From positions 1-64,000 of the forward strand of contig NZ_CANNGO010000007.1 in assembly GCF_947504215.1 (NCBI RefSeq): a DNA stretch of 64,000 nucleotides, in the 5' to 3' direction. Positions within the stretch are counted from its first letter, which is position 1, and each line of letters opens with the position of its first letter. Origin of the DNA: an uncultured Ruegeria sp. GTDB taxonomy: Bacteria; Pseudomonadota; Alphaproteobacteria; Rhodobacterales; Rhodobacteraceae. The position numbers were made by a program, and so were the translations under genes. A model generated the notes under the pieces. The model saw only the letters and a list, made by a program, of their open reading frames with translations, had not been told where the DNA came from and made no database searches. Of this stretch, positions 3,550 to 20,376 are shown piece by piece.

Positions 3550-4412
3550 AACCTGGCACGACGTGCCGGAATGAGGCGCTCAATAGCAAAGCTTGCATCC
3601 AAGTGCGAGAGGTAAAATTAGACCGTCGTTAAGATTATTGAAGCTGGGATCGATGTATAACTGCGGATCAAATGGGTGCTGGGCTGAAAAAAGCGCACGT
3701 TGCGAATAATCCGTTCGGTTTTTTGGTTGATGAGTTTTGCCACGTCGTCCGAATCTCTCATACTGAGGCCTTGAAAACGCAGCGATTTGCCTTTTTTCGA
3801 TGCTGTTCAGAGATCAGGTTTTGCCAGCATGATACTAGCTACCTGGAAAATCTCGTTTACGTTGAGTGTTTTTGCCGAGATCACCTTTATGCTCCTTTTA
3901 CGAGAGCTCAAGGAAATCTTTCCAGCGCTACTCAATATTATCACTTCAAGATCACTCTCTATCAGCAAGAAACATATGCTAAATTGATCAGTTTGTATTC
4001 ACTGCCACAATTGCGCCTTGCTGTTTGGCAGCATTTTAAACACCAACAAAATAACGTACAAAGGACGAGCCTGTTGGTTTCAAAACGTCTGATCGAGAGA
4101 TTGCCGCGGTCTAGGATTGTTGTCAGGAGCCGAGGGCGCGTTTGGCAGCCATGACCTCAGCAAACTTGCCTGCCACCAGCTGTCATTCGGAGTGGTTGCC
4201 GCCGGGCCGCTAACACTGACACCCGCAAGGGTTGAAACACTCCCAAGCCACGACACCACATTTGCGCCACAATTCAAACGCCAAAAAATCTCATTGGCGT
4301 CAAAATAACACCGCCTTGAAGGTTCTTGTTGGTCGTAACGACTTAAAGAGTCCTTTCGCCGCTCTGGTACCCGTACGAGTTTTCCGCCCAACTCCACAAC
4401 AAGGTGTTTGCT
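3550..4412. other. Gene-poor stretch between tRNA-Leu and the GTPase block
   Basis: About 860 bases without a convincing gene. A 160-codon plus-strand frame (3672-4154) and a 159-codon minus frame (4080-4559) have no recognisable motif, poor starts and atypical composition, and the minus frame overlaps the real gene that follows. The left part is noticeably AT-richer than the flanking genes. The promoter for the GTPase block should lie in its last 200-300 bases, but I cannot point to clear -35/-10 boxes. Confidence 0.5.
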
Positions 4413-4835
4413 GTGACCGATTTGAACCACTCTACCGCTTCCGAGCAAGACGCCGTTTTCTTTGCTCGCGAAAGTTTTCTTGGAGAGCTCAAAACCCTGA
4501 ACCGGGATTATCCGGAAACGGGCTTTGGAATCTCGCTGCGCACCCATTCCGGCGAGCACTACTTGCTGGCCAATGCAAGCATGCCGCTACCAGCGGCAAA
4601 ATCTGACGGGTTTCCAACTGGACGCCGCGTCGCGTGCCTGGAAAACGGAGATCGCTTTAGCTCCATAGAAGTTATGGCTGATTCCCTGGCTTACGAAACT
4701 ATTTCGCCTCGGGCAGAAGCTGCGATTTTGGGGAACGCGATAGAACTGATTGCACGTATCGACACACTGACCAGCATCCCTGCCGGTCGTGTTACACAAC
4801 AGTCCCAGACGGCAGCAACGGGAACCGGAGGCTAA
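4413..4835 (+). CDS. Unknown protein, first gene of the dynamin-like GTPase block
   Basis: About 140 residues, no signal peptide or membrane segment, and no family I recognise. I chose GTG 4413 because an AAGG site lies eight bases upstream; GTG 4404 is in the same frame and remains possible. The middle contains alternating strand-like segments (FGISLRTHSGEHYLLAN) and the end a helix (AILGNAIELIARIDTL). The gene ends two bases before the start of the 670-residue GTPase, whose ribosome binding site GGAGG lies inside this gene's 3' end, so the two are almost certainly co-translated. The position suggests an accessory subunit or regulator of the GTPases, which is inference only. Confidence 0.6.
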   Translation: MTDLNHSTASEQDAVFFARESFLGELKTLNRDYPETGFGISLRTHSGEHYLLANASMPLPAAKSDGFPTGRRVACLENGDRFSSIEVMADSLAYETISPRAEAAILGNAIELIARIDTLTSIPAGRVTQQSQTAATGTGG

Positions 4836-4837
4836 TA

Positions 4838-6850
4838 ATGGCGCGCAACGACCACCTTTTGTCTGTCGGCAACGAAGCTCTGGCGCCGATGACGTCAGCA
4901 ATGTCCTCGCTGACCGCACAGATAGACCAATTGACTGAGGTGGCCGATGCACGGTCCTCGGCGCGGCTGGCCACGCTTAAGACGCGGATGGAAAATTTCA
5001 CTGCCAGCGTGACGATGGTTGGTCAGGTCAAGGCTGGCAAATCGTCGATTGTAAACATTCTTGCGGGCCGTCCCGGACTTTTGCCATCGGATGTGAACCC
5101 ATGGACGTCTGTTGTGACAACCTTGAACATCAACACGCGTACGCATGGCGACACAAAGTCTAAGTTTACATTCTTTGAGCAAGAAGAATGGGACAACCTG
5201 ATGGTCGGGGGTGGTCGTTTGGGTGAATTGGCCAATCGGGCTGGTGCGGACGACGAAATGGATGACATTCGCCGTCAAATCGGGGAAATGAAGGCCAAAT
5301 CAGAGGAACGGTTGGGCAAACACTTTGATCTGATTCTGGGCCAGAGCCATCAGTATGAGTATTTCGATGAAGAGCTAATCCAGCGCTACGTTTGTTTAGG
5401 GGACGAGGACGATCCTGATATCGACCCGAAAACGGGGCGTTTTGCTGATGTAACCAAGTCAGCGGAACTGTATATGGACATTCCGCAATACCCGGTCGCA
5501 TTGAAGCTGTGTGACACGCCCGGTGTGAACGATACCTTCATGGTTCGCGAGCAGATCACGCTACGTAGCCTCCGCGGATCTGAGGTATGTATTGTTGTTT
5601 TGGCGGCCAGTCAGGCGCTGACGACGATGGACATGGCGCTGATGCGCATCATCTCCCAATTCGAAAACCGTCAGATCATTCTCTTTGTGAACCGCATCGA
5701 TGAATTGTCGGACCCGGTGACTCAGGTGCCCGAAATCCGCGACAGGATTCAGGACACGCTGAAACAGAACAATATCGACAAGAATGCAAGCGTTGTATTT
5801 GGCAGTGCTTTGTGGGCCGAAGCTGCCTTGACCGGCAATCCGGATATTCTGACCGAGGAATCCCGCGCGGCCCTGAACACGTTCTATCTGGCTGCCGGTT
5901 TTGGCGATCAGGCGGCCTCGCTCGACAAGATCTGGGCTCTATCCGGCCTTCCCGATCTATTACTTGCGATGAGCGAACGCATCGCCGAAGGTGCCGGAAC
6001 GCGTCTGCTGGACCGGGTCCGCCATCGCGCACGCAACATCGCGAGTCAGATCCGAGCAACAGCAGTGGCCAAGAATCTGTCCAGTGGCGAGGGTGTCGTT
6101 CGTGATTTGGATGGTGTTTCGCCAGAGGAAGCAATCTCGACCGTTTCCGCCGAGTACGAAAAGAAGGTCGCAGATCTGACGGCGGCATTGCGCGATAAGG
6201 TACTGGAGCGGCTGAACTCGGCTGAAGCCAATTTTGTCAAACGCGCGACGGATTCCCTGATCTCGCATTTGGAGATGAATGGCGAGCAAGGAACTTGGCA
6301 GTATGACCCGGCCGGGCTGCGAACCCTGCAAAAAGCCGCGTATTTTAGCTTTGCGCGATCCATGCGGAAAGAGGCAGGTGCGCTGTATTCCTCTGCTGCT
6401 GCGGATGTGGAAACGCTGTATCATAAGCTTCTTGGCAACCACTTGGGCGAGTTCAGCATCGAAGCGCCCATTGTCCCTCGGGTTCCGCCACCACTTGGCA
6501 TTGGCCGTACAATCGCTCTTGATCTTCAGAGCACATGGTGGCGACGTTGGTGGCAAAAGCGCAAAGGGTTCGAGGCGTATGCTGCCGACTATACACGGCT
6601 GATTGCCTCAGAGGCTAATTCGATCACCAAGGATATCGAGGAGAATCAGGTCGCGGCCGTGTTGGAAAACGTCCGGGCAATTCTGGCTGATTTCATGCGC
6701 GAGCAAAAAGAAACTCTGTTGAGCATCTCGGCTTCTGCAGAAAAAGACGGAGGCCAGAATCCCGCGCTGATGGCAGGCTTACAGCCACAGAAATCTCGGG
6801 ACGATATTCTGGGCGACATCCTTAAAGATCTGAGCAACGAAGCGGCATGA
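4838..6850 (+). CDS. Dynamin-like GTPase A1 (first pair, long partner)
   Basis: A 670-residue large GTPase of the bacterial dynamin-like type. G1 P-loop GQVKAGKSS is at 62-70, a G2 threonine lies in SDVNPWTSVVT near 84-94, G3 is DTPGVND at 226-232 and G4 is NRID at 285-288. The C-terminal 300 residues are predicted mostly helical, like a dynamin stalk/bundle. They include an unusual Trp/Arg-rich patch, TWWRRWWQKRK, near residues 565-575 that could contact membrane. There is no signal peptide or classical transmembrane helix, so it should be cytosolic or peripheral. It is clearly paralogous to the 680-residue GTPase at 10028 (shared GQxKAGKS, LPSDVNPWT, RYVC, DTPGVND, NR-D). The last four bases overlap the start of the next GTPase (ATGA). 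Members of this family hydrolyse GTP to remodel membranes; the target here is unknown. Confidence 0.88.
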   Translation: MARNDHLLSVGNEALAPMTSAMSSLTAQIDQLTEVADARSSARLATLKTRMENFTASVTMVGQVKAGKSSIVNILAGRPGLLPSDVNPWTSVVTTLNINTRTHGDTKSKFTFFEQEEWDNLMVGGGRLGELANRAGADDEMDDIRRQIGEMKAKSEERLGKHFDLILGQSHQYEYFDEELIQRYVCLGDEDDPDIDPKTGRFADVTKSAELYMDIPQYPVALKLCDTPGVNDTFMVREQITLRSLRGSEVCIVVLAASQALTTMDMALMRIISQFENRQIILFVNRIDELSDPVTQVPEIRDRIQDTLKQNNIDKNASVVFGSALWAEAALTGNPDILTEESRAALNTFYLAAGFGDQAASLDKIWALSGLPDLLLAMSERIAEGAGTRLLDRVRHRARNIASQIRATAVAKNLSSGEGVVRDLDGVSPEEAISTVSAEYEKKVADLTAALRDKVLERLNSAEANFVKRATDSLISHLEMNGEQGTWQYDPAGLRTLQKAAYFSFARSMRKEAGALYSSAAADVETLYHKLLGNHLGEFSIEAPIVPRVPPPLGIGRTIALDLQSTWWRRWWQKRKGFEAYAADYTRLIASEANSITKDIEENQVAAVLENVRAILADFMREQKETLLSISASAEKDGGQNPALMAGLQPQKSRDDILGDILKDLSNEAA

Positions 6851-8610
6851 GCGAACAAATGGCAAAAGATTCACAAACCCGCTTCGTTTCGCCCAAAGCG
6901 TGGGAACGCATCGAGCAGTGGTCCCGCCGCAAGCCGGTCTTCGCATTGATGGGAGAGTTCAGCGCCGGGAAATCGACGCTTATGAACTTTCTGTTGCGTA
7001 CGCAGACGTTGCCAACGCAAGTCACCGCAACGCAACTGCCGCCCGTGTGGTTCAGCTGGGGCAATCAATCAGCCTATGTTAAGCGGCAGGACGGCAGCAC
7101 AGAAGACATTGAACTTGATCGGCTTGAAGCGGTCGGCGTGAATGACGCGCAATTCATCCGTATCTTCCTTGAGGCTGATATCCTAGAGGCCGTTGATCTG
7201 ATCGATACTCCCGGAATCTCCGACCCCAAGATCTCAACAGATGTGTGGCAGCGCGCGGTTGGTCAGGCCAACGGTGTCTTGTGGTGCACCCATTCCACCC
7301 AAGCGTGGCGAGAAACGGAGCGTGCGACATGGGTCTCGCTGCCCGAACGGCTGCAAAACAACTCTCTGTTGCTGGTCACTCGGGCAGATGCACTGGGTCA
7401 GAAAGACCGTCAAAAAGTTCTGCGCCGAGTCAATCGCGAAGCCGGCCATCTGTTCAACCGCTCTATCTTGTTCTCTGCACGGGACGCGATCACCGCACGG
7501 GACAAAACCGGCGATGCCGAGATGTGGTCGCGAAGCGGCGGCGGCAAAATGATCGATAGTTTCCTTGAGATTACCGAACATATCATGGAGAATCGCGCAG
7601 ATCAGTTGGCACGGTACCAGATCGACAAAAGCATGTCGGACGCGCCCAAGGTTCAACCTTTGCGCCCAGCATCTAAGTCCGCCGAACTGGGATCGGGTAC
7701 AGAAGGTGTCTCGCCATTGAAACTGGTGAACCCTCTGACAGACGGTACGGACATTGATCCGGCAGAATCTTCAGTTGTGACCAGCTTCCCGGTGCGCCCT
7801 GCCCGCGTGGAGCGGCGCTCTGAGGATGCGGAACGGACGCGAATTGACTCGGAAGAGGCCGAGCGGCTGAGGGCGGAAATGGTGCCCGAAGCAGAGCCAG
7901 CCGCGGAACCTACTGACACCAACGATGACGAGTTGCGTGCCTTCTTCAAGGATACGTCCAACGGTCCGCTTGATTTGAGCAACATACCCGAGTCCAACCG
8001 GGATGATGACGACCTTGACCTGCTTGATGACCCGGATTTTGATGACGACATCGAGGAAGAAACCCTCTTCGACGACGAAACTGACATGGACCAATTGCAG
8101 GTTGAGGAGACAGATAACTCAGAAGATCTTTTGGTTTCTCTCAACGGATCCCTGGCGGACACATCCGAAATCGAAAGTGAAGAACTTGAATCGGTTGAGC
8201 CAGCGGAAGACCACGGCATTGAAGTTTCGGTGTCTTCCATTACCGCCCTGATGGCCGAACAATCGAATGATAGCGTTGACGATTATGAGCCCGAACCAGA
8301 ATCCAACGGGTTGATCGAGATCGAAGGCGCGCCGCAGCCCAAGGATGTCGGCGAGATCAAAGAAACCGTCGCTGGTGAATTGATTGATGTATCCGCCGAT
8401 TCGATGTTGAGCGCTTCGTCCATGTGGCAGGAAATCGTCGGCAAAGAAGACCTTCCTGAGGATGCGGATGGATTGAAGAACGTCTTCAAAGCCTTTCTGG
8501 CTGAATTTGACCAGATCGCCGTCGAACACAATGCGCGACAAGTAAAGGAGTCCTTACGTCCAATCCCGAGCGCCAGCGAAAACAGCAGCGCAGAATGGCA
8601 TATGTTGTAA
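6847..8610 (+). CDS. Dynamin-like GTPase B1 (first pair, acidic-tail partner)
   Basis: A 587-residue protein. The N-terminal GTPase domain has G1 GEFSAGKST at 36-44, G3 DTPGISD at 120-126 and a divergent G4, TRAD, at 178-181. Between G3 and G4 lies WCTHSTQAWRETER, a block shared with the 428-residue GTPase at 12067 but not with the longer partners. After about residue 250 there is no helical stalk. Instead there is a roughly 300-residue low-complexity segment rich in Asp and Glu (for example DDDLDLLDDPDFDDDIEEE), ending in a short putatively helical tail (about 530-575). The start overlaps the stop of GTPase A1 by 4 bp, implying coupled translation and a joint complex. The acidic segment might bind a basic partner or be a phosphorylation target of the downstream kinase; neither is shown by sequence. 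Confidence 0.85.
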   Translation: MSEQMAKDSQTRFVSPKAWERIEQWSRRKPVFALMGEFSAGKSTLMNFLLRTQTLPTQVTATQLPPVWFSWGNQSAYVKRQDGSTEDIELDRLEAVGVNDAQFIRIFLEADILEAVDLIDTPGISDPKISTDVWQRAVGQANGVLWCTHSTQAWRETERATWVSLPERLQNNSLLLVTRADALGQKDRQKVLRRVNREAGHLFNRSILFSARDAITARDKTGDAEMWSRSGGGKMIDSFLEITEHIMENRADQLARYQIDKSMSDAPKVQPLRPASKSAELGSGTEGVSPLKLVNPLTDGTDIDPAESSVVTSFPVRPARVERRSEDAERTRIDSEEAERLRAEMVPEAEPAAEPTDTNDDELRAFFKDTSNGPLDLSNIPESNRDDDDLDLLDDPDFDDDIEEETLFDDETDMDQLQVEETDNSEDLLVSLNGSLADTSEIESEELESVEPAEDHGIEVSVSSITALMAEQSNDSVDDYEPEPESNGLIEIEGAPQPKDVGEIKETVAGELIDVSADSMLSASSMWQEIVGKEDLPEDADGLKNVFKAFLAEFDQIAVEHNARQVKESLRPIPSASENSSAEWHML

Positions 8611-8662
8611 TGGAACTCGAATCGAGGTAGTGGATAATTAATAATGGAAAACAGATAGTTAT

Positions 8663-9064
8663 ATGTCGATCCAAACCGCACTTCAATCCGCAATGGACAC
8701 CATACCCGACTGTATCGCAGGCGGGTATGTTGACATGGAAACGGGCATGCTTTTGGGAACATGTCTTACCGATCCAGACAGCGCGAATGTCTTGGATGCG
8801 TTGGCGGTTGCTGTGGCGAATTTGTTTCAGGGACGCGGTGTTGCCGCTTTTGAAGCTTTGTTAAGGCAGGCAGGAACGGAAGAGGCGGGAAACCCGGGGT
8901 TTGGTGAAATCGCGGTGTTTTCGCAAGACCGATTGAACATCTTTTTGCGAACCCAGGAATATCCGGATCACGTGGTTTGCTACATTTGTCGGAACAGCGC
9001 GAATGTCGGTTTGGCACTAACAAAATCACATCTCAGCTTGGGGTCGGTTGCGGCCGCAGTTTGA
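8663..9064 (+). CDS. Roadblock/LC7-like protein
   Basis: A 133-residue protein whose order of predicted elements fits the Roadblock/LC7 fold: an N-terminal helix, a strand pair around GGYVDMETGMLLG, a long central helix (residues about 41-68), two more strands (EIAVFSQDRLNIFLR) and a closing VCYICRNSANVGLALTK-like strand/helix. In bacteria the best-known members, MglB-type proteins, act as homodimeric regulators of small GTPases. The gene sits between the two dynamin-like pairs, so a role in controlling or scaffolding these GTPases is plausible. The match is by pattern, not by a profile search. The ribosome binding site is weak, and the gene is 52 bp after GTPase B1. Confidence 0.65.
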   Translation: MSIQTALQSAMDTIPDCIAGGYVDMETGMLLGTCLTDPDSANVLDALAVAVANLFQGRGVAAFEALLRQAGTEEAGNPGFGEIAVFSQDRLNIFLRTQEYPDHVVCYICRNSANVGLALTKSHLSLGSVAAAV

Positions 9065-9087
9065 GCGGGACCAGAGGGGGTCACGGC

Positions 9088-9960
9088 ATGATGGATACTG
9101 ACATACTGGAAATGCTCGAAGATATCGGGCGGTCGTCGGTGGCAAGATTGTCGCCGGCCGTTTTGGTTTCTGGTGACACTGCTTCGGAACGACGTGTCGA
9201 AATTCTGCGTGTCATTCGTGGGACTGTTCTGCCGCGTCGTCTTGAGTTCACGGCAGCAAATGGCGACTGCTTGGCAATCGAGGTTAATAGCTCGCGGGTT
9301 ACCGATGTCTTCCAGGTTCGATCAGGGCCTATTCCCGATTTCAACACCGAGGCGCGAGAAGACTTGGTCGGTAAATTGGCGCAGCTTGTTTCTGACATCT
9401 CCGGCGCCCCTACCCCGATGGAATTGGTGTCGCTGAAACCGGATACAGCGCTTGAAGCCGATGATGTCGGCATCACGCTAAGCGAAATTGAAAGCGCGTG
9501 TGAGCAGATTGAGCTGCCTTCCGAACCCATTGTGTCGGTTGTACAGGAGACCGAAGAAGCGCTCGCTACCGAACAATCTGAAGAAGACATTGTCGAGCAG
9601 GCGGAAAGCCTGGCTCAGAACTTTTTTGATGGGGTTCACCGGTTCTCGACTGGCCGCGTTTTGATGGAAAGTGCGGATGGGGATGCGCTGCGTTTCGAAG
9701 GGCAGTGCGCGCCCGATGGAACAATGCATCCAGATCAAAAATTGCTGACGCGTTTCGCTGCAGATCTGGCGGGCTGGGACAACGATACAGAGACAGAACT
9801 GGACCACCCCCAACTGATAGTGATGCGCCCTTCGGGTGGTAAAGGTGCCGGTCTGGCTGTGGTACATGACGGCGAGAAAACTGCCGTTGCTCTGCATGAA
9901 GCGCGCAAATTAGGTGCGGTTGTCAATCTTTGGAGTTCGCTTCTGGAGACGGGAAAATGA
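9088..9960 (+). CDS. Unknown two-part protein between the GTPase pairs
   Basis: About 290 residues; I do not recognise a family. ATG 9088 is chosen because it follows an AGAGGGGG site and avoids the long overlap with the Roadblock gene that an upstream start would require; ATG 9091 is the neighbouring alternative. The protein seems to have two similar halves joined by an acidic linker (residues about 120-185, rich in Glu). LEFTAANGDCLAIEV in the first half resembles VLMESADGDALRFEG in the second. It has no signal peptide or membrane helix. It lies 23 bp after the Roadblock-like gene and 67 bp before the second GTPase pair, so it is probably part of the same system. Confidence 0.7.
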   Translation: MMDTDILEMLEDIGRSSVARLSPAVLVSGDTASERRVEILRVIRGTVLPRRLEFTAANGDCLAIEVNSSRVTDVFQVRSGPIPDFNTEAREDLVGKLAQLVSDISGAPTPMELVSLKPDTALEADDVGITLSEIESACEQIELPSEPIVSVVQETEEALATEQSEEDIVEQAESLAQNFFDGVHRFSTGRVLMESADGDALRFEGQCAPDGTMHPDQKLLTRFAADLAGWDNDTETELDHPQLIVMRPSGGKGAGLAVVHDGEKTAVALHEARKLGAVVNLWSSLLETGK

Positions 9961-10027
9961 CCCCGTCTGTAATATTCAAAAATTCGAGTAATTTAGTTCA
10001 TTGTTTCAAGTATCAGGGTAAAGAGTT

Positions 10028-12070
10028 ATGAGTGAAACTAGTCGTCGCGAGTTAATTCGCATTGCAGAAGATATGAACAAGATCAGCAACGACGAAACGC
10101 GTCAGTTTATCTCGCGTATTGTCGGTGATCTTACCAATCTTAAGCCTTCGATCGCATTTGTTGGGCAAATCAAGGCCGGAAAATCCCGTTTGATAAACGG
10201 ATTTACGGGTCAGGCAGAGTACCTGCCGTCAGACGTCAACCCTTGGACGACTGTCATCACGGATATGCATTTCGGACACCCATCCGGGCGGACCGAAGGG
10301 GCAGAATTTCACTTCTTCGACAATCACCAGTGGCAGTCTTTGATCGTCGAGGGTGAAGAACTGCGTAACATGTTCCCGGATGACGAGGACAGCTACAAGC
10401 GTGAGATGATCGAAGAACAGGTCGAGGCGATGCAAGTCCGAGCGCGGCGGCGATTGGGTGACAGCTATGAACAATTGCTCGGCCAACATCATGATCTGGA
10501 GCATCTGACATCAGACGATCTTGCGCGCTATGTCTGTGCAGGCGACGATCCAACCGAAGACAGCGTCTTGGATCCGGGCAGCGACAGGGGTTTGTACAGC
10601 GACATTACTCGCAAGGCCGAGGTCTATTTTGACGTCGGCCATTTTCCATTTCCATTGACAGTGACGGACACGCCTGGCGTAAACGATCCGCTGCTGATCC
10701 GCGAAGAGATTTCACGACAGTATCTAAAAGAATCGGATTTCTTTGTTGTGGTCCTTTCGGCGCATCAGGCGCTTTCGCGCGCTGACCTGAAACTGTTCAG
10801 GTTGATGCAGGCATTGGAACTTGGTCAGATTGTCGTATTCATCAACCGAGTCGACGAGCTGGGCGACGGGGCCGAAGACGCCACAAAAGTGCGCGCTGAC
10901 GTTCTGGAAGGCTTGGAAAAGGCGCTCGGGAACGCGGATATCGATGTTTTGATGGGCAGTGCGCAGTGGGCACATTTTGCACTGACCGGTGATGAGACGG
11001 GGATAAACCATGATCAGGTTCTGGCTTGGTTGCGCGCGCATCCCGAACAGATGAAGCAATATCTGGACGGTGTCGAAGAGATCAAACAAGGCCCCGGCCC
11101 GATAAGTCGCGAAGCGGTTTTGCGCTTTGCTGCTATGATCGCCTCGGGTCTTCCGGATCTGCGCCGTCATGTAACGCAAGCTTTGACCGATGGTCCACGC
11201 GATGAACAATTGCGCATGGCATGGCAGCATCTCAACAGTTTTGCCCGGGGGGAACTGGAGCGGTCTCAGGCCCACCTGCGTGCGCTCGAAGACGACAACG
11301 CGGCTAACTTGGCAAGCGCAGATGAAAACGACAAGACCCTGGCAGAACTGCGCAGTCTTGTTGCGGGTAAAACACAAGGTATAACCCAGGACATGGATGA
11401 TGTTTTGTCCAATCTTCGTGGCGTTATGGATGACACCGTGGCCGAGGCTGTTTCGGCTGTCGTTCGGGGTCCTGACGGGCAATCGCCCTTGCTGGCCAAA
11501 GGCGGTGCGACCGAATTGAATTTCACACCGTTACGCGAGCGGATGAGAGAGTTGGTTCAAGGCGCATCTCAAGTCGTTCGGCAGCGCATGCTGAGCGAGC
11601 TTTACGCGATTGACATGCAAAGCAACGCTTCGTTGCGCGCCCTGCCCGGCTGGCAAGAACCGGCCGACAACCGTATGAACACCAGCGCAGTTCGATGGTT
11701 CCGCCCGGATACGACGGCACTGACACGTGGAATTACTGTTGAATTGCGTGTAAACTGGTTGTCGCGTCTGATTTCGCGCAATAGCGTCGTGTCGCGCGCG
11801 GAAAAGATGATCGTGCAGGAGTTCGAGTTGATCGGGGACGATCTGATTGACACTGCGCGGGATGACCTGTCTGAAAGACTGAATACGGTCCTTGATCACT
11901 ATCTGGCTTTGCTGGCCGGGCATCTTGAACACAGATCCGGGACCGATGAAACAAATGCACGGGCCGAAGCGCAAGGCGCATTCGACCGGGCGCGCCGCAT
12001 TGCTGATAAGCTGGCGACAGCCTTTGGAACGAGCATTGCGGAAGAACGACAAGCAGAGGCTGCGGAATGA
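10028..12070 (+). CDS. Dynamin-like GTPase A2 (second pair, long partner)
   Basis: A 680-residue dynamin-like GTPase: G1 GQIKAGKS at 46-53, G2 threonine in SDVNPWTTVIT at about 69-79, G3 DTPGVND at 214-220, G4 NRVD at 273-276. The rest is predicted mainly helical, with a probable coiled stretch around residues 400-460. It aligns along its length with GTPase A1 (shared LPSDVNPWT, LGQ-H, RYVC-GD, MGSAxWA-ALTG). The Trp/Arg-rich patch of A1 is replaced by LRVNWLSRLISR, still a possible amphipathic membrane contact. The stop overlaps the start of the 428-residue GTPase by 4 bp, exactly as in the first pair. It is probably a cytosolic/peripheral membrane-remodelling or tethering protein. Confidence 0.88.
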   Translation: MSETSRRELIRIAEDMNKISNDETRQFISRIVGDLTNLKPSIAFVGQIKAGKSRLINGFTGQAEYLPSDVNPWTTVITDMHFGHPSGRTEGAEFHFFDNHQWQSLIVEGEELRNMFPDDEDSYKREMIEEQVEAMQVRARRRLGDSYEQLLGQHHDLEHLTSDDLARYVCAGDDPTEDSVLDPGSDRGLYSDITRKAEVYFDVGHFPFPLTVTDTPGVNDPLLIREEISRQYLKESDFFVVVLSAHQALSRADLKLFRLMQALELGQIVVFINRVDELGDGAEDATKVRADVLEGLEKALGNADIDVLMGSAQWAHFALTGDETGINHDQVLAWLRAHPEQMKQYLDGVEEIKQGPGPISREAVLRFAAMIASGLPDLRRHVTQALTDGPRDEQLRMAWQHLNSFARGELERSQAHLRALEDDNAANLASADENDKTLAELRSLVAGKTQGITQDMDDVLSNLRGVMDDTVAEAVSAVVRGPDGQSPLLAKGGATELNFTPLRERMRELVQGASQVVRQRMLSELYAIDMQSNASLRALPGWQEPADNRMNTSAVRWFRPDTTALTRGITVELRVNWLSRLISRNSVVSRAEKMIVQEFELIGDDLIDTARDDLSERLNTVLDHYLALLAGHLEHRSGTDETNARAEAQGAFDRARRIADKLATAFGTSIAEERQAEAAE

Positions 12071-13353
12071 TTGAATTTCCCGGAACCGAAAAGGAAGTGC
12101 GTCAGTTGGAGCGCTTTCTGAACGCGTCAGAAGACCTACCGTCAGACGCGACTTTGGACGACATGCGAGCACGGGCGTTGGCCCATGCCGAACGTCTGTC
12201 CAATGCGGTAAATATCGGTTTCGCCGGGGAGTTTGGAGCTGGAAAATCAAGCCTCGCCAACATGTTGGCCGGGGCAGATATATTACCAACCGGACCTCAG
12301 CACCTGAAATTACCGCTGGTAATTGTTGCTTATGCCGACACACCTGAAACCACCGTGGGTTGGTGGGAAAAGGAACCCAAGACCTATTCCGGGATCGCGC
12401 TGGAAAAGGCGGCGGCGGACAATCCTGATTTCATCTCCGTAGGTCTTAACACTCCTGCCCTGAAGGAAATCTCGTTGTTTGATTTGCCGGGCTCAGGTGC
12501 GTTGGATGATACGTATAAACAGACCCTGGACCTGCTAAAATTCGTCGACTGTGCCATCTGGTGCACCAATGGAACCAATGCCTGGCGCGAGACTGAACGC
12601 CATCTTTGGGCTCAGGTGCCATCAAAATTGCGCGAGAACAGCCTGTTGGCAGTCACCCATTCCGACTTGCCGCCCGTCCATGACGCGCTCGATCGTGTTT
12701 TGGCTCGTTTGAACAAGGAAAAGGGTTCGATGTTCCGCTCTGTAGTGCCAATCGGTACGCCAGTTGCGGTCCGCGCCATGGCACAAGAGCCCGAGCCTGA
12801 TTTCAAGCTTTGGGAAACTTGCGGAGGGCAAAATCTGGCAGAAAAGGTGCTCGAGGTGGCGTCGAACCGACGCCAAAGCGACCTTGACGCCGCGCGTAAG
12901 GACTTAGAGCAGGATTTCCTGCCATTTCTTGAAACGCTGCAAGGGCCCGAACCCGAGCAGACTGAAAGTGATGGCGCGTCGATGAAAGTCACGCTTGGAT
13001 CTGCTTTGCCACCGCTAAACAACCCCATTCTCGAAGATTGGTTGGCGGCCATTGCCAGCATCTATGAGGATCTTCGCGAATCTGCGGATATTGAACCAGC
13101 GGCCTTCCTGCAGAGTTGTCAGGAAATTGTCGAGGATTTCGCCGAGCGTTTGGATCAAGGTGGTGAAATCGACCCGGAAGCCGACTGGATTCCGGCGGAG
13201 TTCGAAAAAGCAACAGATTTGTTGCTGCTGCTGCAATTTGAAAGCGGCAATGCCCCGTTAAAGGATGCAATCAGCATACTGGCACAGCTGAGCGACAACC
13301 TTGCATGGGCCGGCAGCACCCTGCCAGAATCACAGACCAAAACCGGAACCTGA
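12067..13353 (+). CDS. Dynamin-like GTPase B2 (second pair, short partner)
   Basis: A 428-residue GTPase paralogous to B1. G1 is GEFGAGKSS at 54-62, G3 is DLPGSG at 139-144 (Leu replaces the usual Thr), and a divergent G4, THSD, is at 197-200. It shares the WCTNGTNAWRETER block and the following LRENSLLAVT with B1. It lacks B1's long acidic segment; the C-terminal 170 residues are acidic but look helical. Loss of canonical Asn-Lys-x-Asp in both B proteins suggests altered nucleotide specificity or a structural rather than catalytic role. Paired, heteromeric dynamin-like proteins are known in other bacteria, which supports a B2-A2 complex, although that is inference here. A 339-bp gap follows before the kinase gene. 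Confidence 0.82.
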   Translation: MIEFPGTEKEVRQLERFLNASEDLPSDATLDDMRARALAHAERLSNAVNIGFAGEFGAGKSSLANMLAGADILPTGPQHLKLPLVIVAYADTPETTVGWWEKEPKTYSGIALEKAAADNPDFISVGLNTPALKEISLFDLPGSGALDDTYKQTLDLLKFVDCAIWCTNGTNAWRETERHLWAQVPSKLRENSLLAVTHSDLPPVHDALDRVLARLNKEKGSMFRSVVPIGTPVAVRAMAQEPEPDFKLWETCGGQNLAEKVLEVASNRRQSDLDAARKDLEQDFLPFLETLQGPEPEQTESDGASMKVTLGSALPPLNNPILEDWLAAIASIYEDLRESADIEPAAFLQSCQEIVEDFAERLDQGGEIDPEADWIPAEFEKATDLLLLLQFESGNAPLKDAISILAQLSDNLAWAGSTLPESQTKTGT

Positions 13354-13692: not shown

Positions 13693-15885
13693 ATGAGCCA
13701 CAATCAGGCTGTCGGTGCATCGCACGACGAACCAAAAATCGAGGGACTGCAACCGGGCTCAAAGCTTCTGCGCGGACAGTACGAAGTTCTTAGCTTCCTC
13801 AGCAATGGCGGGTTTGGAATAACCTATCTGGCGCGCGACAGCCTCGAACGCAATGTGGTCATCAAAGAATGCTACCCCGGCGCTTTGTGTCGTCGAAACG
13901 GCGACTTGGTCGAACCAGCCGATTCCTCCTTCAAGGACGACCTTCGCGCAATCATCGACCTTTTCATTCTTGAAGCCCGCAACCACGCACGGTTGGTTCA
14001 TCCCAACATCGTTGACGTGCATCAGGTCTTTGAAGACAACGAGACCGCGTACATCGCAATGGACTTGATCCGTGGGTGCGATCTTCTCGATTACGTCGAG
14101 AACCTAGAAAATGACGGCGGACCTGACTTTATCGTGCAGGTCACCGAAAAGATGCTGTCTGCGGTCTCTTTCATCCACCAAAGCGGTATGTTGCATCGGG
14201 ACATATCGCCCGACAACATTTTGATAGACGAGAATGGCGACCCGGTCCTGATCGACTTTGGTGCAGCGCGCGAGCAAGCAGCCAATAAGTCAGCGGCACT
14301 TATGACCCTGCGCGTCATCAAGGACGGGTATTCGCCCCACGAGTTCTACGTTCGCGGTGCAGAGCAAGGCCCGAGCAGCGATCTGTATGTACTCGCAGCT
14401 ACCTTGTATCACGCCATAAGTGGCGAACGCCCAATTGACGGGCAGACCCGACTGAACGCGTTCAACAACGGTCACGATGACCCTTATGAGCCGCTTGCTG
14501 GTCGTTTCGAGGGGTATCCAGAGGGGTTTCTGGAAGCGCTCGACAAGGCGATGGAGGTGCACGCCACGGACCGTCTGCAGTCAGCGCTGGATTGGTTGCG
14601 TATGTTCCGCGGTCCGGGCGTAATGTTTGACACGTTTGCTTATCGCCCCGTGTCTGTCATCGTTGGCATGGACCGGAAGGACAAGGAAGAAGAACAGGCT
14701 CGGATCAAAGCCGAGAGCGAAAACGCCGAAGCCGTTGTTACGGCCTTACTCGCAGGCAATGCAGACATTGCCCTAGGCAACGAAGACAAGAAAGACGAAG
14801 AACCTGCCAGGTTCTCTGCCAAAGACGACAACGCAGTTGCTGTAGATACCGTGGTTCAGAGCGGTTCGGGCGGCAATGGCAAGTTAATTGCCGGCGCTGC
14901 TGCTGTGGCCGTGGTGCTGGCTGCGGGTGGGTTCTTCGTGATGTCCGGCGACAAGACTGAGCCAGCCACAGAGACGACGAACGCAACATTGGCCCCGGCC
15001 ACACAATCTGCACAGGCTGAAGCCGAAACGCCAGCTTCCGAGCCGGAATCAGAGACATCGGCGACTTTGACACCAGAGCCGACACCGATCGTCGAAGACG
15101 CAGCGCCTGAACCAGAAAACATTGTAGCGCAGCCTGTCGAGCAGGAACAGGCCGAGACTGCGGAAATAGCTGCCATAGAAGCAGCCTCCGCAGAACCAAA
15201 AGCAACCGAGGCTGAACCTCAGGCCGGCGCACTGGCAGTTGCGACGGGAGACAAGACCGCCATGGAAGGGTCGGTCAATCTGGCTGAAACCCAGGTCTCG
15301 TTTGCGCATTGGGATGTAGAAATCCCGTTCGATGTCTCTAGACGTCGCGCATCGACCGGCAATGTGATTGCAGTCACCGGAGTTGACCCCACTATTGATA
15401 TGACAGTGATCGGGGATTGGGTGACCCGAGGGGCCGCGATCTTTACTTTGAATGGCAAGCCAATTCAATCGGACGCGTCATTCGCAGCACAAGTGTTGGA
15501 CAACCTCCAGGTGGACCCAGATGGCTATACCCGCGTCGCCGCCCGGTACCGTCCTCTGGGCAAGACCAGGGCCAGCAATGGACTGTTGGCTTTGCCTGCC
15601 ATCCGCTCGGTAGGTCTTGAAAATGGCTATGCGTTCACCATTCGCGGAACGGGCGAGGCCGAATGGCAGACTGTGGTCTCGGACGTTCCAGCAGAGAATT
15701 CAGGCTCCCTTCAAAAAGGCGATGTGCTGCTGAGTGAAGCGCAGACTGGGATGACTTTCGATGGGTCAGAAAGTTTGGATGCATTGCTGGCGCAGCTTGT
15801 TTCTGCAAATCAAGCTGAGGCACGCTTTAGTGTCTCGCGAAACGGCACCGAAGCCGCTGCGGCCATGCGATTGGTTCAGGAGTGA
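13693..15885 (+). CDS. Transmembrane Ser/Thr protein kinase with periplasmic PDZ-like tail
   Basis: A 730-residue eukaryotic-like kinase. The glycine loop LSNGGFGITY is at 36-45, the ATP lysine in VIKECYPG is about 58, the catalytic loop HRDISPDN is at 168-175 and IDFGAAR starts at 187, so all catalytic residues are present. A linker of Glu/Lys-rich sequence follows (about 330-395), then one transmembrane helix (about 397-418, LIAGAAAVAVVLAAGGFF). A periplasmic Ala/Glu/Pro-rich stretch comes next, and a C-terminal region with two PDZ-like segments (IGDWVTRGAAIFTLNGKPI and SLQKGDVLLSEAQTG). It should sense something outside and phosphorylate cytoplasmic targets. The next genes encode an FHA protein (a phosphothreonine reader) and a PP2C phosphatase, the classical partners. 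The upstream GTPases are candidate substrates, by inference. Confidence 0.92.
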   Translation: MSHNQAVGASHDEPKIEGLQPGSKLLRGQYEVLSFLSNGGFGITYLARDSLERNVVIKECYPGALCRRNGDLVEPADSSFKDDLRAIIDLFILEARNHARLVHPNIVDVHQVFEDNETAYIAMDLIRGCDLLDYVENLENDGGPDFIVQVTEKMLSAVSFIHQSGMLHRDISPDNILIDENGDPVLIDFGAAREQAANKSAALMTLRVIKDGYSPHEFYVRGAEQGPSSDLYVLAATLYHAISGERPIDGQTRLNAFNNGHDDPYEPLAGRFEGYPEGFLEALDKAMEVHATDRLQSALDWLRMFRGPGVMFDTFAYRPVSVIVGMDRKDKEEEQARIKAESENAEAVVTALLAGNADIALGNEDKKDEEPARFSAKDDNAVAVDTVVQSGSGGNGKLIAGAAAVAVVLAAGGFFVMSGDKTEPATETTNATLAPATQSAQAEAETPASEPESETSATLTPEPTPIVEDAAPEPENIVAQPVEQEQAETAEIAAIEAASAEPKATEAEPQAGALAVATGDKTAMEGSVNLAETQVSFAHWDVEIPFDVSRRRASTGNVIAVTGVDPTIDMTVIGDWVTRGAAIFTLNGKPIQSDASFAAQVLDNLQVDPDGYTRVAARYRPLGKTRASNGLLALPAIRSVGLENGYAFTIRGTGEAEWQTVVSDVPAENSGSLQKGDVLLSEAQTGMTFDGSESLDALLAQLVSANQAEARFSVSRNGTEAAAAMRLVQE

Positions 15886-15925
15886 TGTGTCCGGTTCAAT
15901 AACATGTACCAGCGTTTGTTTGTTG

Positions 15926-16092: not shown

Positions 16093-17100
16093 ATGTTCAA
16101 ATATAAAAGCCCTCTCAGCCGGCTTCTCGAAGGTGCCGGCAAAGCCCAGGAAGACGAAGTTGTAGAAAGCACAACACCTGCTGAAGACAAACAGGAGCCG
16201 ATTGCGGACTTCAACGCCCTGCGTGCAGCCCTGGCTGGCGGAAACATGGCCTCCGAAGCTTATGAGGAAGCGGACGAGTTGATCCCCGAAGGAAAGATGC
16301 CCGACTTTGAGGAATCCAAAGTTGAGATCGCTGAGGGTGAAAAACCCGCAGATGAAGCGAACGCTCCTGATACCTCGGTCGAAGACGTGGAAACCGCGGC
16401 TGAAGTTCCGGCCGTCGAGTCTGCAGAAGAGTCGCATGACAACGATCAGATCCTGACCCTCCATCTTACTGAGGACGATGCGATTGTTGGCGACGAAACG
16501 GTTTCGCTCAACACGGAAGAGACCGCAGCGGATACAGCAGAGGTTGTAGTAGATATCTCAGCCCAGTCGCCCGAGGCGGAGCTAGAACCAGCCGAGCATC
16601 CAGCAACCGAGCGGGCGGCCCCGGAACCTGCACCCACCGAGGATCGCAGGTCCCGTGTCAAAACAACCTTCCTTGGCTTTGAACGCGCGGACACTCATGT
16701 TCAGGATCTGATTGAAACGGCGACGCCTGTTGCGAAAACGGAAACTGCTCAAGAATCGTTCCCGGTGGGATGGTTGGTTGTGACGGGTGGTCCCGGTCGG
16801 GGCGCCAGCATTGGTTTGACTGAAGGCCTGATGCAGATCGGCCGCAATGATGATCAGGCCATTCAGCTGGATTTCGGCGATACCGGGATCTCGCGGTCCA
16901 GCCACGCTGTGGTTGCGTATGATCCCGAAGATCGTAAGTGTTATCTGGGCCATGGCGGTAAAGCCAATCTTGTGCGTCTGAACGGCAAACCTGTTCTGAG
17001 CACTGTTCCGTTAGCCAGCGGGGACCTGATCCGGATCAGCGAAACCTCTGTTCGTTTTGTCGCCTTCTGTGACGACGGCTTTGATTGGCGGGAATCCTGA
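16093..17100 (+). CDS. FHA-domain protein
   Basis: 335 residues. Residues 1-220 are low-complexity and very rich in Glu and Ala, with no clear fold. Residues about 225-330 form an FHA domain with the hallmark IGRNDD, ISRSSHAVV (Gly-Arg, then Ser...His) and LVRLNGKPV asparagine-containing segments used to bind phosphothreonine. It is therefore the expected reader of phosphorylation by the kinase just upstream. It ends 3 bp before the PP2C gene (stop, then ATG), so these two are co-translated. The long acidic N-terminus resembles the acidic segment of GTPase B1 in composition only. Probably cytosolic. Confidence 0.9.
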   Translation: MFKYKSPLSRLLEGAGKAQEDEVVESTTPAEDKQEPIADFNALRAALAGGNMASEAYEEADELIPEGKMPDFEESKVEIAEGEKPADEANAPDTSVEDVETAAEVPAVESAEESHDNDQILTLHLTEDDAIVGDETVSLNTEETAADTAEVVVDISAQSPEAELEPAEHPATERAAPEPAPTEDRRSRVKTTFLGFERADTHVQDLIETATPVAKTETAQESFPVGWLVVTGGPGRGASIGLTEGLMQIGRNDDQAIQLDFGDTGISRSSHAVVAYDPEDRKCYLGHGGKANLVRLNGKPVLSTVPLASGDLIRISETSVRFVAFCDDGFDWRES

Positions 17101-17103
17101 TAG

Positions 17104-17889
17104 ATGTTGGCGACCCCGGCATATGACATTGCGCTGATCCTGGATCAGGGACGGCGCGATTCTCAGGAAGACGCGATTGCCTCGCGCGTGTTTGACGCAG
17201 CGGGTTCGGGTTATGTCGTCGTTGCTGATGGAATGGGTGGCCATGAGGCGGGTGAGGTTGCCTCAGAGATGGTGATTGCCGCATGGCGCGACTCGCTGGA
17301 TAGCGAGCTTGAGAAAGACAATCCGGTCGAGGCGACGTTGGTTGATACGCTTCCTTTGGCGGCAATACAGGCCAATGCGTCGATTGCAACTCACAACGAA
17401 GAACAAGGTGACGGATTCAACATGGGGTCCACCCTTCTGGGTGTCCTGCTGCTGGATCAGCGCGTGTTCTGGATTTCAATCGGGGATAGCCCACTTTATC
17501 TTTTCCGAAACGGTGATCTGCAGCAGATCAACGAAGATCACTCGATGGCCCCGATGATTGACGCGCAAGCGGCCCAGGGGCTTCTGACAGAAGCCGAGGC
17601 GCAGGTTCATCCTGACCGCAACCAGCTGACTTCGGTCGTTATGGGGGCTGCAATCCCTCAGGTCGATTGCCCAGAAGAGCCGCTGACACTGACGGCAGAG
17701 GACATTCTCGTTCTGGGCAGCGACGGGCTGCAATACCTGAGTAACGCCGAGATACAGACCATTCTGAGCAACAACTCACAGGCATTGGCCCAGGATATCG
17801 CGGACTCATTGTTAAAGGCACTGCAGGTCAAAAACGATCCGGATCAGGACAACCTATCAATTGCCGTCGTGAAACTGAAGAGAACCTAA
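17104..17889 (+). CDS. PP2C-family Ser/Thr protein phosphatase
   Basis: 261 residues with the full set of PPM/PP2C motifs: RRDSQEDA near residue 20, VVVADGMGGHEAGE near 38-51 (metal-binding Asp and Gly), NMGSTLLGVLL, SIGDSPLYLFR, ILVLGSDGL and the closing DQDNLSIAVVKL. It should remove phosphate from Ser/Thr targets of the neighbouring kinase and reset the signal. Size and domain limits match stand-alone bacterial PP2C enzymes. There is no membrane segment. The gene starts 3 bp after the FHA gene and is followed 21 bp later by the first LysM/solute-binding protein. Confidence 0.93.
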   Translation: MLATPAYDIALILDQGRRDSQEDAIASRVFDAAGSGYVVVADGMGGHEAGEVASEMVIAAWRDSLDSELEKDNPVEATLVDTLPLAAIQANASIATHNEEQGDGFNMGSTLLGVLLLDQRVFWISIGDSPLYLFRNGDLQQINEDHSMAPMIDAQAAQGLLTEAEAQVHPDRNQLTSVVMGAAIPQVDCPEEPLTLTAEDILVLGSDGLQYLSNAEIQTILSNNSQALAQDIADSLLKALQVKNDPDQDNLSIAVVKLKRT

Positions 17890-17910
17890 AAAGGCAAAGC
17901 AACAGTAAAA

Positions 17911-19173
17911 ATGAGAAAACATCTGATCATATCCAGTCTGGCCCTTGCCGCCGCTACAGGCGCGGCCTCGGCCCAGGAGGCGTGTTCAACCTACGAGATT
18001 CAGCGCGGTGACAGCCTGCGTGATCTATCGATAGAGGTTTATGCGACAGAAGACTTCCGGATCCTCTATGACGCCAATCGGGATGTCATCGGATCAAACC
18101 CGAACGTCATTCGGGTCGGCGACGTACTGACCATGCCCTGTCTCGAAGACTTTGGGCGTGCACCGGTTCTGGCTGATACCGAGGCCGAACGGCTTGCCTC
18201 TGCTATGGCAGCGGAACTGGTGAAAGCTGCAGAAGCGCGCGCCGAAAAGGCCATTGCAGAAGCCGAAGCCCGTGTAGCCGCGGCAGAAGCCGAAGCGCAA
18301 CAAGCCAGTGAGGATGCCGTTGCTGCTGCCAAAGCCGAAGCGAAAAAAGAGATTGAAGCGGCCCGTGCCGAAGGTGCTGCTCTGATCCGTGACGCCGGTG
18401 TGGGTGCACGCCCCGAATTTAGTGATCGTCAGCTACTGTTGATCACAAGTGGGAACTACGCGCCTTTCACGGACGAGGCGTTACCGCATCGCGGCCTGTA
18501 CACTCAATTGGTAGAGACGGCGATGCTGCGCGCCGCGCCCGAGCAGTCTTACAAAATCCAGTTCGTCAATGACTGGTCCTCGCATCTGGATCTTCTGATG
18601 CCGACGCTCGCTTTTGACGGAACGTTCCCGTGGTCGCGCCCAAACTGCGAAGCGGCCGAAGCGCTATCTGAAACGGATCGTTCGCGTTGCGAGACCTACA
18701 ACTTCTCGAATCCGTTCTATGAGGTTGTGGATACGTTCTTTGCACGAAACGGTTCAGGCTATGAGCAGACGCTGACTTATGCTGACTTTGCTGGTACGAC
18801 GATCTGCCGTCCTGAAGGCTGGTCTTTGTCCCACATGGATGCGGTCGGGCTCTATGAGCCTGCAGTGACTTTGATGCGCCCGGTATCACCGGATGACTGC
18901 TTCCATGCCGTGATGGAAGGAACAGCCGATATCGTCGCAATCGAGGCCCATCTTGCTGTCGAGACAATCGGGCGCCTGGGTTACGAACACCGCATTATCG
19001 AAAACCCCAATCTCGCGGCGATCAAGTCGCTTAACGTCATGACCCATAAAGACAATCCTGATGGGGAAGCGATCCTTGAGACGCTGAATCAGGGTCTGGC
19101 AATCATGCAGCAATCCGGCGAATGGCGCGACATTGTGTCGACCGCCCTGCGTTATCAAATGGAAAATGGATAG
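17911..19173 (+). CDS. Secreted LysM plus solute-binding-domain protein 1
   Basis: 420 residues. A signal peptide, residues 1-21 (MRKHLIISSLALAAATGAASA), is followed by a LysM-like domain about 27-75 (IQRGDSLRDLSIEVY...IRVGDVL). Next is an Ala/Glu coiled coil about 85-150 and then a family-3-type extracellular solute-binding fold about 165-415 (LLITSGNYAPFTDEALPHRG...NPDGEAILETLNQGLAIMQQSGEW). Six cysteines match those of the next protein, suggesting conserved disulfides. LysM binds peptidoglycan, so it probably tethers a ligand-sensing module to the wall. It lacks transporter genes beside it. With the transmembrane kinase upstream, a sensory role is more likely than uptake. Confidence 0.85.
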   Translation: MRKHLIISSLALAAATGAASAQEACSTYEIQRGDSLRDLSIEVYATEDFRILYDANRDVIGSNPNVIRVGDVLTMPCLEDFGRAPVLADTEAERLASAMAAELVKAAEARAEKAIAEAEARVAAAEAEAQQASEDAVAAAKAEAKKEIEAARAEGAALIRDAGVGARPEFSDRQLLLITSGNYAPFTDEALPHRGLYTQLVETAMLRAAPEQSYKIQFVNDWSSHLDLLMPTLAFDGTFPWSRPNCEAAEALSETDRSRCETYNFSNPFYEVVDTFFARNGSGYEQTLTYADFAGTTICRPEGWSLSHMDAVGLYEPAVTLMRPVSPDDCFHAVMEGTADIVAIEAHLAVETIGRLGYEHRIIENPNLAAIKSLNVMTHKDNPDGEAILETLNQGLAIMQQSGEWRDIVSTALRYQMENG

Positions 19174-19217
19174 GGCTCCAAAAAGCCTGACAAACCAAAA
19201 GTCTGGAGGAAGTGGAC

Positions 19218-20324
19218 ATGTTTGAATTTAATTTGAAAAAAGTTGTGATGTCGGCCACCGCCGTCACTGCCCTAAGCGCCGGTGCCGCCGCCGCTCAGGA
19301 AGCTTGTACGAACTATACAGTCGCAGATGGTGATACGATGGCGACCATCGCCATCGCGGCCTATGGCTCATCAAACTATCAGCCGATCTTTAACGCCAAC
19401 CGGAATGTAATCACCAACCCAGGCGCGCTTGAGCCAGGTTTGGTTCTGGCCCTGCCCTGTGAAGACGGCAGCCTGCCCAACGGTCAAAGCGCCCAAGAAC
19501 TAATTGCGGCTGAAGAACAGCGCGCGGCAAGCGTCAAACGTTCGAATGTCTACGCTCCGCCAATCAAGATGGTGTCGGGCAACGGATGGGAACCATTCAC
19601 CAGTGAAAAGCTGAACGGAGGTGGGATCATGACCCGCCTGGCGACAACCAGCCTTCAGCGTGCTGGCAACAACCGTGATTTTTCGGTCAGCTTTGTGGAT
19701 GACTGGTCCTCACACCTAGAGACGCTCTTGCCACTGGGCGCATTCGATATCTCGATCGCCTGGACAGTGCCTGATTGTACGAACCGCACTTATGAGTGGT
19801 CCGCAGCTACTGAATCCCGGTGCAACGAATTTGTTGCTACGGTCCCGGTCTACGACATCGTTGGCGGTTTTTTCACTCTGCCGGAAAGCGAATTCGCACA
19901 GGCAACAGCCTTCGAAGACCTTGAAGGCGCAACCCTCTGCCGCATGGATGGCTGGAGCATGGTTGTGCTTGAAGAAGTCGGATTAAACTCTGAAAACCTG
20001 ACTTTGGTTCATCCCAGCTCGGCCCGCGAATGCCTTGATGCCGTTTTGACTGGAACAGCGGATGTGGCAGCGTTTGAAGTTGATCTGTTCGCGGCAACGA
20101 TGAACGACATGGGTCTGACTTCTGCTGACATCGTTGAAAACCCATACGTTTCTACACTGTCGTCGATGAGCTTTCTTGCGCATCGCACCAACCCCTTTGC
20201 GCGCGAGTATATTGCGATGATGAACAAAGGCCTGATCGAAATGCGCGAATCCGGCGAATGGTACGCGATCATCTCGGACACCCTGCGCGAGCAAAACGAA
20301 AAGTTGAACGCAGCTTCGAACTGA
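19218..20324 (+). CDS. Secreted LysM plus solute-binding-domain protein 2
   Basis: 368 residues from ATG 19218, chosen because GGAGGA at 19205-19210 is well spaced; GTG 19212 is an alternative. The signal peptide ends near AAAAQEA (about residue 26). A LysM-like domain follows (VADGDTMATIAIAAYG...LEPGLVLALPC), then, without the coiled coil of its neighbour, a solute-binding-type domain (MVSGNGWEPFTSEKLNGGG...NKGLIEMRESGEW). It is homologous to the preceding protein and keeps the same six cysteines (EAC, LPC, VPDC, SRC, TLC, REC). The pair may bind related ligands or form a heteromer. It is the last gene of the block and is followed by a strong terminator. Confidence 0.85.
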   Translation: MFEFNLKKVVMSATAVTALSAGAAAAQEACTNYTVADGDTMATIAIAAYGSSNYQPIFNANRNVITNPGALEPGLVLALPCEDGSLPNGQSAQELIAAEEQRAASVKRSNVYAPPIKMVSGNGWEPFTSEKLNGGGIMTRLATTSLQRAGNNRDFSVSFVDDWSSHLETLLPLGAFDISIAWTVPDCTNRTYEWSAATESRCNEFVATVPVYDIVGGFFTLPESEFAQATAFEDLEGATLCRMDGWSMVVLEEVGLNSENLTLVHPSSARECLDAVLTGTADVAAFEVDLFAATMNDMGLTSADIVENPYVSTLSSMSFLAHRTNPFAREYIAMMNKGLIEMRESGEWYAIISDTLREQNEKLNAASN

Positions 20325-20347: not shown

Positions 20348-20376
20348 GGGGCTGGTCTTTGACTGGCCCCCTTTTT
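20348..20376 (+). terminator. Intrinsic terminator closing the signalling block
   Basis: GGGGCTGGTC (20348-20357) pairs with GACTGGCCCC (20361-20370), allowing two G-U pairs, around a three-base loop. CTTTTT follows. It lies 23 bp after the second LysM gene and touches the end of the convergent deacetylase gene. Confidence 0.88.

Follow-up and report, generated by a model that had tools for sequence, protein, structure and literature searches.

Two pairs of dynamin-like GTPases in a twelve-gene cluster of Ruegeria with predicted Roadblock proteins and a kinase module

Why bacterial dynamins pair and what activates them is an open question in the field, and it is raised again by a locus of an uncultured Ruegeria sp. 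(contig NZ_CANNGO010000007.1 of assembly GCF_947504215.1), of which the first 64,000 nt, hereafter the window, were analysed. The original prediction for this DNA had placed four large GTPases in the order A1-B1 and A2-B2 within a region ending at 13353. The four genes were found at those positions, all on the forward strand, in an operon that extends further, from 4404 to 20324, and comprises 12 genes in the same orientation, in the order X0-A1-B1-RB-U-A2-B2-STK-FHA-PP2C-SBP-SBP (STK, Ser/Thr kinase; SBP, putative solute-binding-like protein; Table 1). The conserved gene X0 and the same-strand genes for the kinase, the FHA and PP2C proteins and two putative periplasmic proteins had been missed. 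On balance, by a narrow preference, we read this 12-gene cluster as encoding a phosphorylation-controlled, Roadblock-regulated membrane-remodelling machine, the control steps of which would be those proposed below.

All four GTPases exceeded the Pfam cut-off of 27 bits for Dynamin_N (A1, 44.6; B1, 38.4; A2, 50.5; B2, 39.3 bits) and kept the G1, G3 and G4 patterns. The motifs on which they had been sorted into two classes were also present: GQVKAGKS in A1 and GQIKAGKS in A2, with LPSDVNPWT, RYVC and DTPGVND in both, and GEFSAGKS in B1 and GEFGAGKS in B2, with AWRETER in both. A1 and A2 matched each other with an E value of 1.2e-61 and 34% identity over A1 residues 32-336, and a search of their own genome with A1 at E 0.001 returned A1 and A2 only. 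In the loci surveyed, all three G patterns were found in 83 of 84 A proteins, and a loose pattern detected a tryptophan-containing motif near the C-terminus in 68 of the 84, which may be a membrane-contact site. Many B proteins were shorter than 320 aa, and B1 is acidic in its later part (27% D/E after residue 240).

When profiles were compared with the PDB, the kin of A1 and A2 matched best to 5owv_A (732 aa; E 6.4e-18), and those of B1 and B2 to 5owv_C (614 aa; E 1.9e-25), chains that we take to be DLP1 and DLP2, respectively. The A profile aligned in two stretches, one of them past the G domain (chain residues 276-611), whereas the B profile was limited to the G-domain part (profile positions 28-230). 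Therefore, the two adjacent genes fit both chains of the Campylobacter pair of dynamin-like proteins (DLPs). In Campylobacter jejuni, Cj-DLP1 and Cj-DLP2 (5OWV) are likewise encoded by adjacent genes in an operon and form a 2:2 tetramer described as membrane-tethering; that operon holds a gene for an HcpA-like beta-lactamase, and the term roadblock is absent from the main text (PMC6104087). The Ruegeria locus differs in having two pairs together with kinase, FHA and PP2C genes, and in the restricted match of its B proteins.

The distribution of the cluster was followed in several samples of genomes. Within the window's genus, 54 of 54 genomes carried A2, so the two-pair arrangement is beyond chance. 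Among the 54 A2 loci found, those with at least 74% identity were titled Ruegeria, except for three with broader names (two Alphaproteobacteria, one Rhodobacteraceae), and the remaining ones (55-59% identity) were Aliiroseovarius; in both genera the four GTPase genes occur together. In the order, A1 matched 60 of 149 genomes, in 26 of 72 genera. At first-look depth, with at most 3-4 candidates scored per genome so that distant kin may be missed, the matches were two among 289 genomes of the class (E 1e-30) and four among 299 of the phylum (E 1e-10), all within the window's family.

Gene order was recorded at 70 loci of the 60 matching genomes, the contig-edge stretch L065 of G072 being set aside, with genes called by profiles grown from the window proteins. 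The commonest arrangement, at 43 loci, was an eight-gene operon STK-FHA-PP2C-B2-A1-B1-RB-U, without A2. Two more loci showed this order minus only a called U, for which weak scores appeared at a lower threshold, and one had three binding-protein genes inserted into it. Nine loci were of the window type, some of them cut by the ends of the fetched regions; five held A-B alone, five an A-B-A-B array, and five were cut or odd (L086, L088, L095, L110 and L162). The blocks A1-B1-RB-U and STK-FHA-PP2C are common to the window and common types, which differ in the block that comes first; B2 lies between the two blocks in either type. The conserved core is formed by A1-B1, and the evolutionary core by A1-B1 plus a Roadblock protein.

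The window order recurs in Ruegeria sp. THAF33, on its plasmid pTHAF33_a, where the genes are annotated as hypothetical, dynamin family, serine/threonine-protein kinase, FHA, PP2C and substrate-binding proteins. Among plasmids, A1 matched 18 records (12 from Leisingera, five of 389-811 kb from Ruegeria and one from Rhodobacter), all typed as non-mobilizable, and one Leisingera plasmid carries the common order. In genome G057, a locus with A1-B1 and a second Roadblock-like gene (L087) lies about 140 kb from one with RB-U-A2-B2 and no kinase (L088) on contig C3, so that the unit of A1 and that of A2 are able to exist separately.

The Roadblock companions were recognised from predicted models, which support a Roadblock fold for RB and for the C-terminal half of U. 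The original prediction had named a Roadblock-like gene inserted or retained between the pairs; the predicted fold supports the Roadblock-like companion, but RB and U are not insertions, as they follow A1-B1 in the 43 common loci, which lack A2. The fold of RB is invisible to Pfam, with no Robl_LC7 sequence match in any of 28 RB members, and a search of the same genome with PF03259 gave three places below the cut-off, none in this locus. The RB profile gave six PDB matches up to E 10, with no Roadblock among them. Comparison of RB with U by hhalign gave 1.5%, and that of X0 with U 0.2%. A Roadblock-type gene was present at 67 of the 70 Rhodobacteraceae loci, and a second Roadblock-like family was found in nine of 10 kinase-less A-B loci, with one of eight members matching Robl_LC7 (E 0.0012) and no PDB match. 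X0 showed 37-86% identity to seven aligned copies from Ruegeria and Aliiroseovarius, and no match at 0.1 to Pfam, NCBIfam or PADLOC.

Downstream of the GTPases, the kinase (Pkinase, 95.3 bits), the FHA protein (FHA, 30.7 bits; cut-off 20.7) and the phosphatase (PP2C_2, 50.9 bits; cut-off 24) each exceeded the cut-off of their domain and form a Hanks-type module; the phosphatase also matched the Stp1 model with E 4.2e-41 and 141 bits, under its cut-off of 230. In one simple hydropathy scan, a hydrophobic span at residues 398-416 of STK (peak 2.4) was the sole standout among the window proteins, which would give STK a cytoplasmic kinase and a periplasmic tail. The protein encoded at 17911-19173 scored 22.8 bits for SBP_bac_3, below the cut-off of 26.4, and its counterpart on pTHAF33_a is annotated as a transporter substrate-binding domain protein; that at 19212-20324 matched LysM below the cut-off (E 0.04). 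Both are putative exported proteins and may serve as sensors at the cell surface.

Threonine phosphorylation modules of the PpkA-Fha-PppA type are known from type VI secretion. Adjacent STK, FHA and PP2C genes are found there as they are here, where their partners are dynamins and Roadblock proteins. The only secretion-related Pfam match in the operon, in scans that included no search aimed at type VI secretion, was a sub-cut-off match of the FHA protein to the FHA-like Yop-YscD_cpl.

Of the roles that had been suggested for the GTPases, membrane remodelling or tethering was retained as the likeliest. By analogy with the Campylobacter pair, A and B would form a heteromer at the inner membrane, on its cytoplasmic side, to which A would contribute a helical part that contacts the membrane, and B would consist largely of its G domain plus an acidic, flexible region. 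The Roadblock proteins may be to the GTPases what MglB is to MglA, a GTPase-activating protein (GAP) or a scaffold. The likeness to MglA-MglB of Myxococcus and Thermus, in which MglB is a Roadblock GAP, is partial: the GTPase there is small and Ras-like and here dynamin-like, and here there are two Roadblock proteins, of which RB lacks a Robl_LC7 sequence match. The kinase would sense an envelope signal and phosphorylate a component docked by the FHA protein, so that the GTPases would be recruited or released, and the PP2C phosphatase would reset the phosphorylation. Both vesicle release, as reported for the Leo proteins, and membrane repair are compatible with such a machine.

More tentatively, and somewhat short of an even chance, the locus may belong to an undescribed Rhodobacteraceae signalling machine in which the heteromeric dynamin pair is the effector, the Roadblock proteins are dedicated regulators and the inputs are exchangeable, being a Hanks kinase-FHA-PP2C module, periplasmic binding proteins or PAS/LOV-like proteins. 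In genomes G084, G080 and G003, which also hold the common operon, a gene for a PAS-domain protein (L092:12901-13443; L096:7023-7565, reverse strand; L104:12738-13337) was seen close to A1-B1 and to the gene of the second Roadblock-like family; this protein has a LOV-like motif, NCRFMQG, and is a possible light input to a dynamin pair.

The third GTPase of the common operon, B2, offers a comparison between loci with and without A2. When all B proteins of at least 240 aa were aligned together, with columns that may shift in degenerate sequences, G1, G3 and G4 were kept in 65 of 65 B2 proteins from loci with A2. Eight of these (L133-L140) are on contigs equal in length to those of eight other A2 loci and were taken as repeat genomes, leaving about 57 distinct ones. 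In contrast, G3 was kept in none of the 47 B2 proteins from loci without A2, and the P-loop pattern was lost in 13 of them. B1 kept all three motifs at 110 of 110 loci with the kinase, and the B proteins without a kinase did so in 13 of 18 cases. The five kinase-less B proteins without G3 all came from the A-B-A-B arrays (L098, L099, L100, L101 and L161), in which they occupy the second B position, each with an A gene adjacent; therefore, the absence of an A partner is not the sole route to degeneration. As the B2 proteins of A2-bearing loci form roughly one clade, the pattern may reflect one event. We read B2 as an additional GTPase of old origin, with motifs retained alongside A2; without A2, it looks like a pseudo-GTPase. 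The loss of B2 motifs where A2 is absent is a natural comparison bearing on the need for two GTPases.

The frequent degeneration of the third GTPase also speaks for a rival reading, in which A and B form a nucleotide switch without membrane remodelling, comparable to MglA-MglB or Rag-Ragulator, with phosphorylation as the input and polarity or another process as the output. Switch GTPases are known to have Roadblock proteins as partners, and the neighbouring kinase, phosphatase, FHA and PAS proteins resemble a signal input. Nevertheless, the similarity of the A proteins to 5owv_A continues past the G domain, as would be the case for a dynamin-like protein, and a Pfam scan of ten operon genes recognised neither an output domain nor a regulator, so a pure signalling switch is considered rather unlikely.

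Anti-phage defence, also named in the original prediction, would have the dynamin pair act at the membrane on infection, with the kinase and FHA protein as a relay, as in the LeoA/LeoB/LeoC proteins of enterotoxigenic Escherichia coli (ETEC), which we take to be the Eleos defence system. All four GTPases scored with the PADLOC models LeoA or LeoBC, for which PADLOC prints no cut-off, and the best was A1 with LeoA at 35.3 bits (best stretch, residues 222-611). The likeness to these paired dynamins is limited by the modest scores, the different neighbours and the universal presence in the genus. Deletion of leoA, leoB or leoAB in ETEC is reported to halve the protein in the vesicle fraction (PMC4159319).

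Two results weigh against membrane remodelling under Roadblock control: STK scored with the defence kinases PD-T4-6 (141.2 bits) and mad6 (128.3 bits) of PADLOC, and the only PDB match of the U profile was a cytochrome c chain (E 6.2e-4). Because of them, confidence in membrane remodelling was lowered slightly and that in defence raised slightly; the patchy presence of A1 in the order also favours defence. However, STK scored 127.3 bits with the general PknB and 105.9 bits with the antiphage MADS6, both below cut-off, so its scores do not single out defence. The presence of A2 in every genome of the genus argues against a defence island, and A1 matched none of 50,697 phage records; both make defence less likely. 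As it rests on sub-specific scores, a defence role is regarded as improbable. A phage-borne origin was rejected as well, since none of 52 pattern matches in viral contigs was a confirmed A relative, which also counts against defence, and no phage record matched.

A further likeness is to the DO-GTPase/GAP1 conflict systems, in which the GTPase is also often found in two paralogous copies with co-evolving partners; those GTPases are of the TRAFAC class and often accompanied by zinc ribbons, with GAP1, and the word dynamin is absent from the text (PMC7159879). No GAP1 family member was found among the Pfam matches of the ten operon genes.

The origin of the two pairs was addressed with quick trees, without bootstraps, of 62 A rows and 81 B rows from an earlier-fetched subset of the loci. 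The group that holds the window A1 has 44 rows (support 93), among them L111, L087, the A-B-A-B arrays with their first A, and 28 A genes from loci with the common operon; A2, together with L086 and L088, makes up another group, of 11 rows (support 99), on long branches that call for caution. In the B tree, B1 was placed beside its counterpart from the common operon, whereas B2 joined that operon's third GTPase (34 rows, support 83). In these trees, neither A1 and A2 nor B1 and B2 were sisters, although the proposed duplication would require it. Approximately unbiased (AU) tests, whose groups follow from that proposal and which were run after the trees had been seen, rejected a clade of 10 A1 and 11 A2 of the A2-bearing lineages (p 0.0158; the A1 of G057, L087, omitted) and one of 12 B1 and B2 rows (p 5.2e-5; L087 and L088 omitted).

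That a single A-B operon was simply duplicated in tandem within this lineage, RB and U being inserted or retained between the copies, is accordingly very unlikely: the two pairs do share the same ATGA overlap, and the A-B-A-B arrays at five of the 70 loci indicate that duplications occur, but both AU tests reject it, the long A2 branches weakening this only partly, B2 and RB-U exist without A2 in the 43 common loci, and an overlap of exactly 4 nt is widespread (44 of 84 A-B pairs). A possible alternative is that the A-B duplication is older than these genera and A2 was later lost.

Two observations concern other loci with A genes. Four of the five A-B-A-B arrays are followed by a small conserved ORF (GPWxxHDGKGCP...; Table 1), of which the L101 copy had no Pfam match. 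At L111:8890-11856 (reverse strand), an A1-type ORF had no detected Roadblock neighbour; it spans 988 aa, begins with a long and unusual N-terminal extension and is probably overlong.

Within the window operon, the gaps from X0 to B2 are at most 67 nt and are followed by gaps of 339 nt before the kinase, 207 nt before the FHA gene and 3, 21 and 38 nt up to 20324. From this spacing, the unit probably exceeds the span first described. The 12 genes are probably co-transcribed. A terminator-like hairpin downstream is a possible operon end, although the consensus scan was weak (15 sites against 18.9 in shuffles); a promoter scan was uninformative (three sites against 7.6 in shuffles).

Table 1. Positions of the operon features in the window and of small ORFs following A-B-A-B arrays
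Feature	Position	Strand	Description
X0	4404..4835	+	small conserved protein; first gene of the operon; 2 nt upstream of A1
A1	4838..6850	+	670 aa; dynamin-like GTPase, core A gene; G1, G3, G4 intact
B1	6847..8610	+	587 aa; partner GTPase; long acidic C-terminal part
RB	8663..9064	+	133 aa; Roadblock/LC7 fold by predicted model
U	9091..9960	+	289 aa; C-terminal part (residues about 167-289) Roadblock fold by predicted model; start taken as 9091 (8977 in the ORF list)
A2	10028..12070	+	680 aa; second, divergent dynamin-like GTPase; G1, G3, G4 intact
B2	12067..13353	+	428 aa; partner GTPase; G1, G3, G4 intact
STK	13693..15885	+	Hanks-type Ser/Thr kinase; one hydrophobic span
FHA-domain protein	16093..17100	+	phosphothreonine reader by family
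PP2C-type Ser/Thr phosphatase	17104..17889	+	PP2C_2 match
Putative periplasmic solute-binding-like protein	17911..19173	+	SBP_bac_3 below cut-off; annotation of plasmid counterpart
Second putative solute-binding-like protein	19212..20324	+	possible LysM N-terminus; annotation of plasmid counterpart
Terminator-like hairpin with T tract	20348..20370	+	10-pair stem then CTTTTTATTT; consensus match only
GPWxxHDGKGCP ORF	L101:15350-15763		
GPWxxHDGKGCP ORF	L099:5129-5437	-	
GPWxxHDGKGCP ORF	L098:5671-6075	-	
GPWxxHDGKGCP ORF	L161:5281-5685	-	

Upstream of the operon lie two transposase-like genes (303-1247, forward strand, DDE_3/HTH; 2016-3341, reverse strand, HTH-rich and read as a transposase) and, beside them, a tRNA-Leu gene (3465-3549). 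Downstream, two divergent carbamoyltransferase genes (Carbam_trans_N/C; 21237-23009, reverse strand, and 23536-25116, forward strand) are followed by genes that read as glycosyltransferase-like.

Among the titles listed in literature searches, the scope of which excluded preprints and most subscription papers, none dealt with a bacterial dynamin operon linked to Roadblock proteins or to a kinase, and the locus suggests that the paired bacterial dynamins already known are extended here by kinase and Roadblock companions. If the more tentative reading, that of an undescribed signalling machine, is true, dynamin remodelling in bacteria would be switched by phosphorylation, and Roadblock control of GTPases would reach from the small Ras-like ones to dynamins. 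As the pair travels with GTPase-regulator folds, a kinase, a phosphatase and a phosphopeptide reader, the control of a dynamin would be directly testable in a culturable marine genus.

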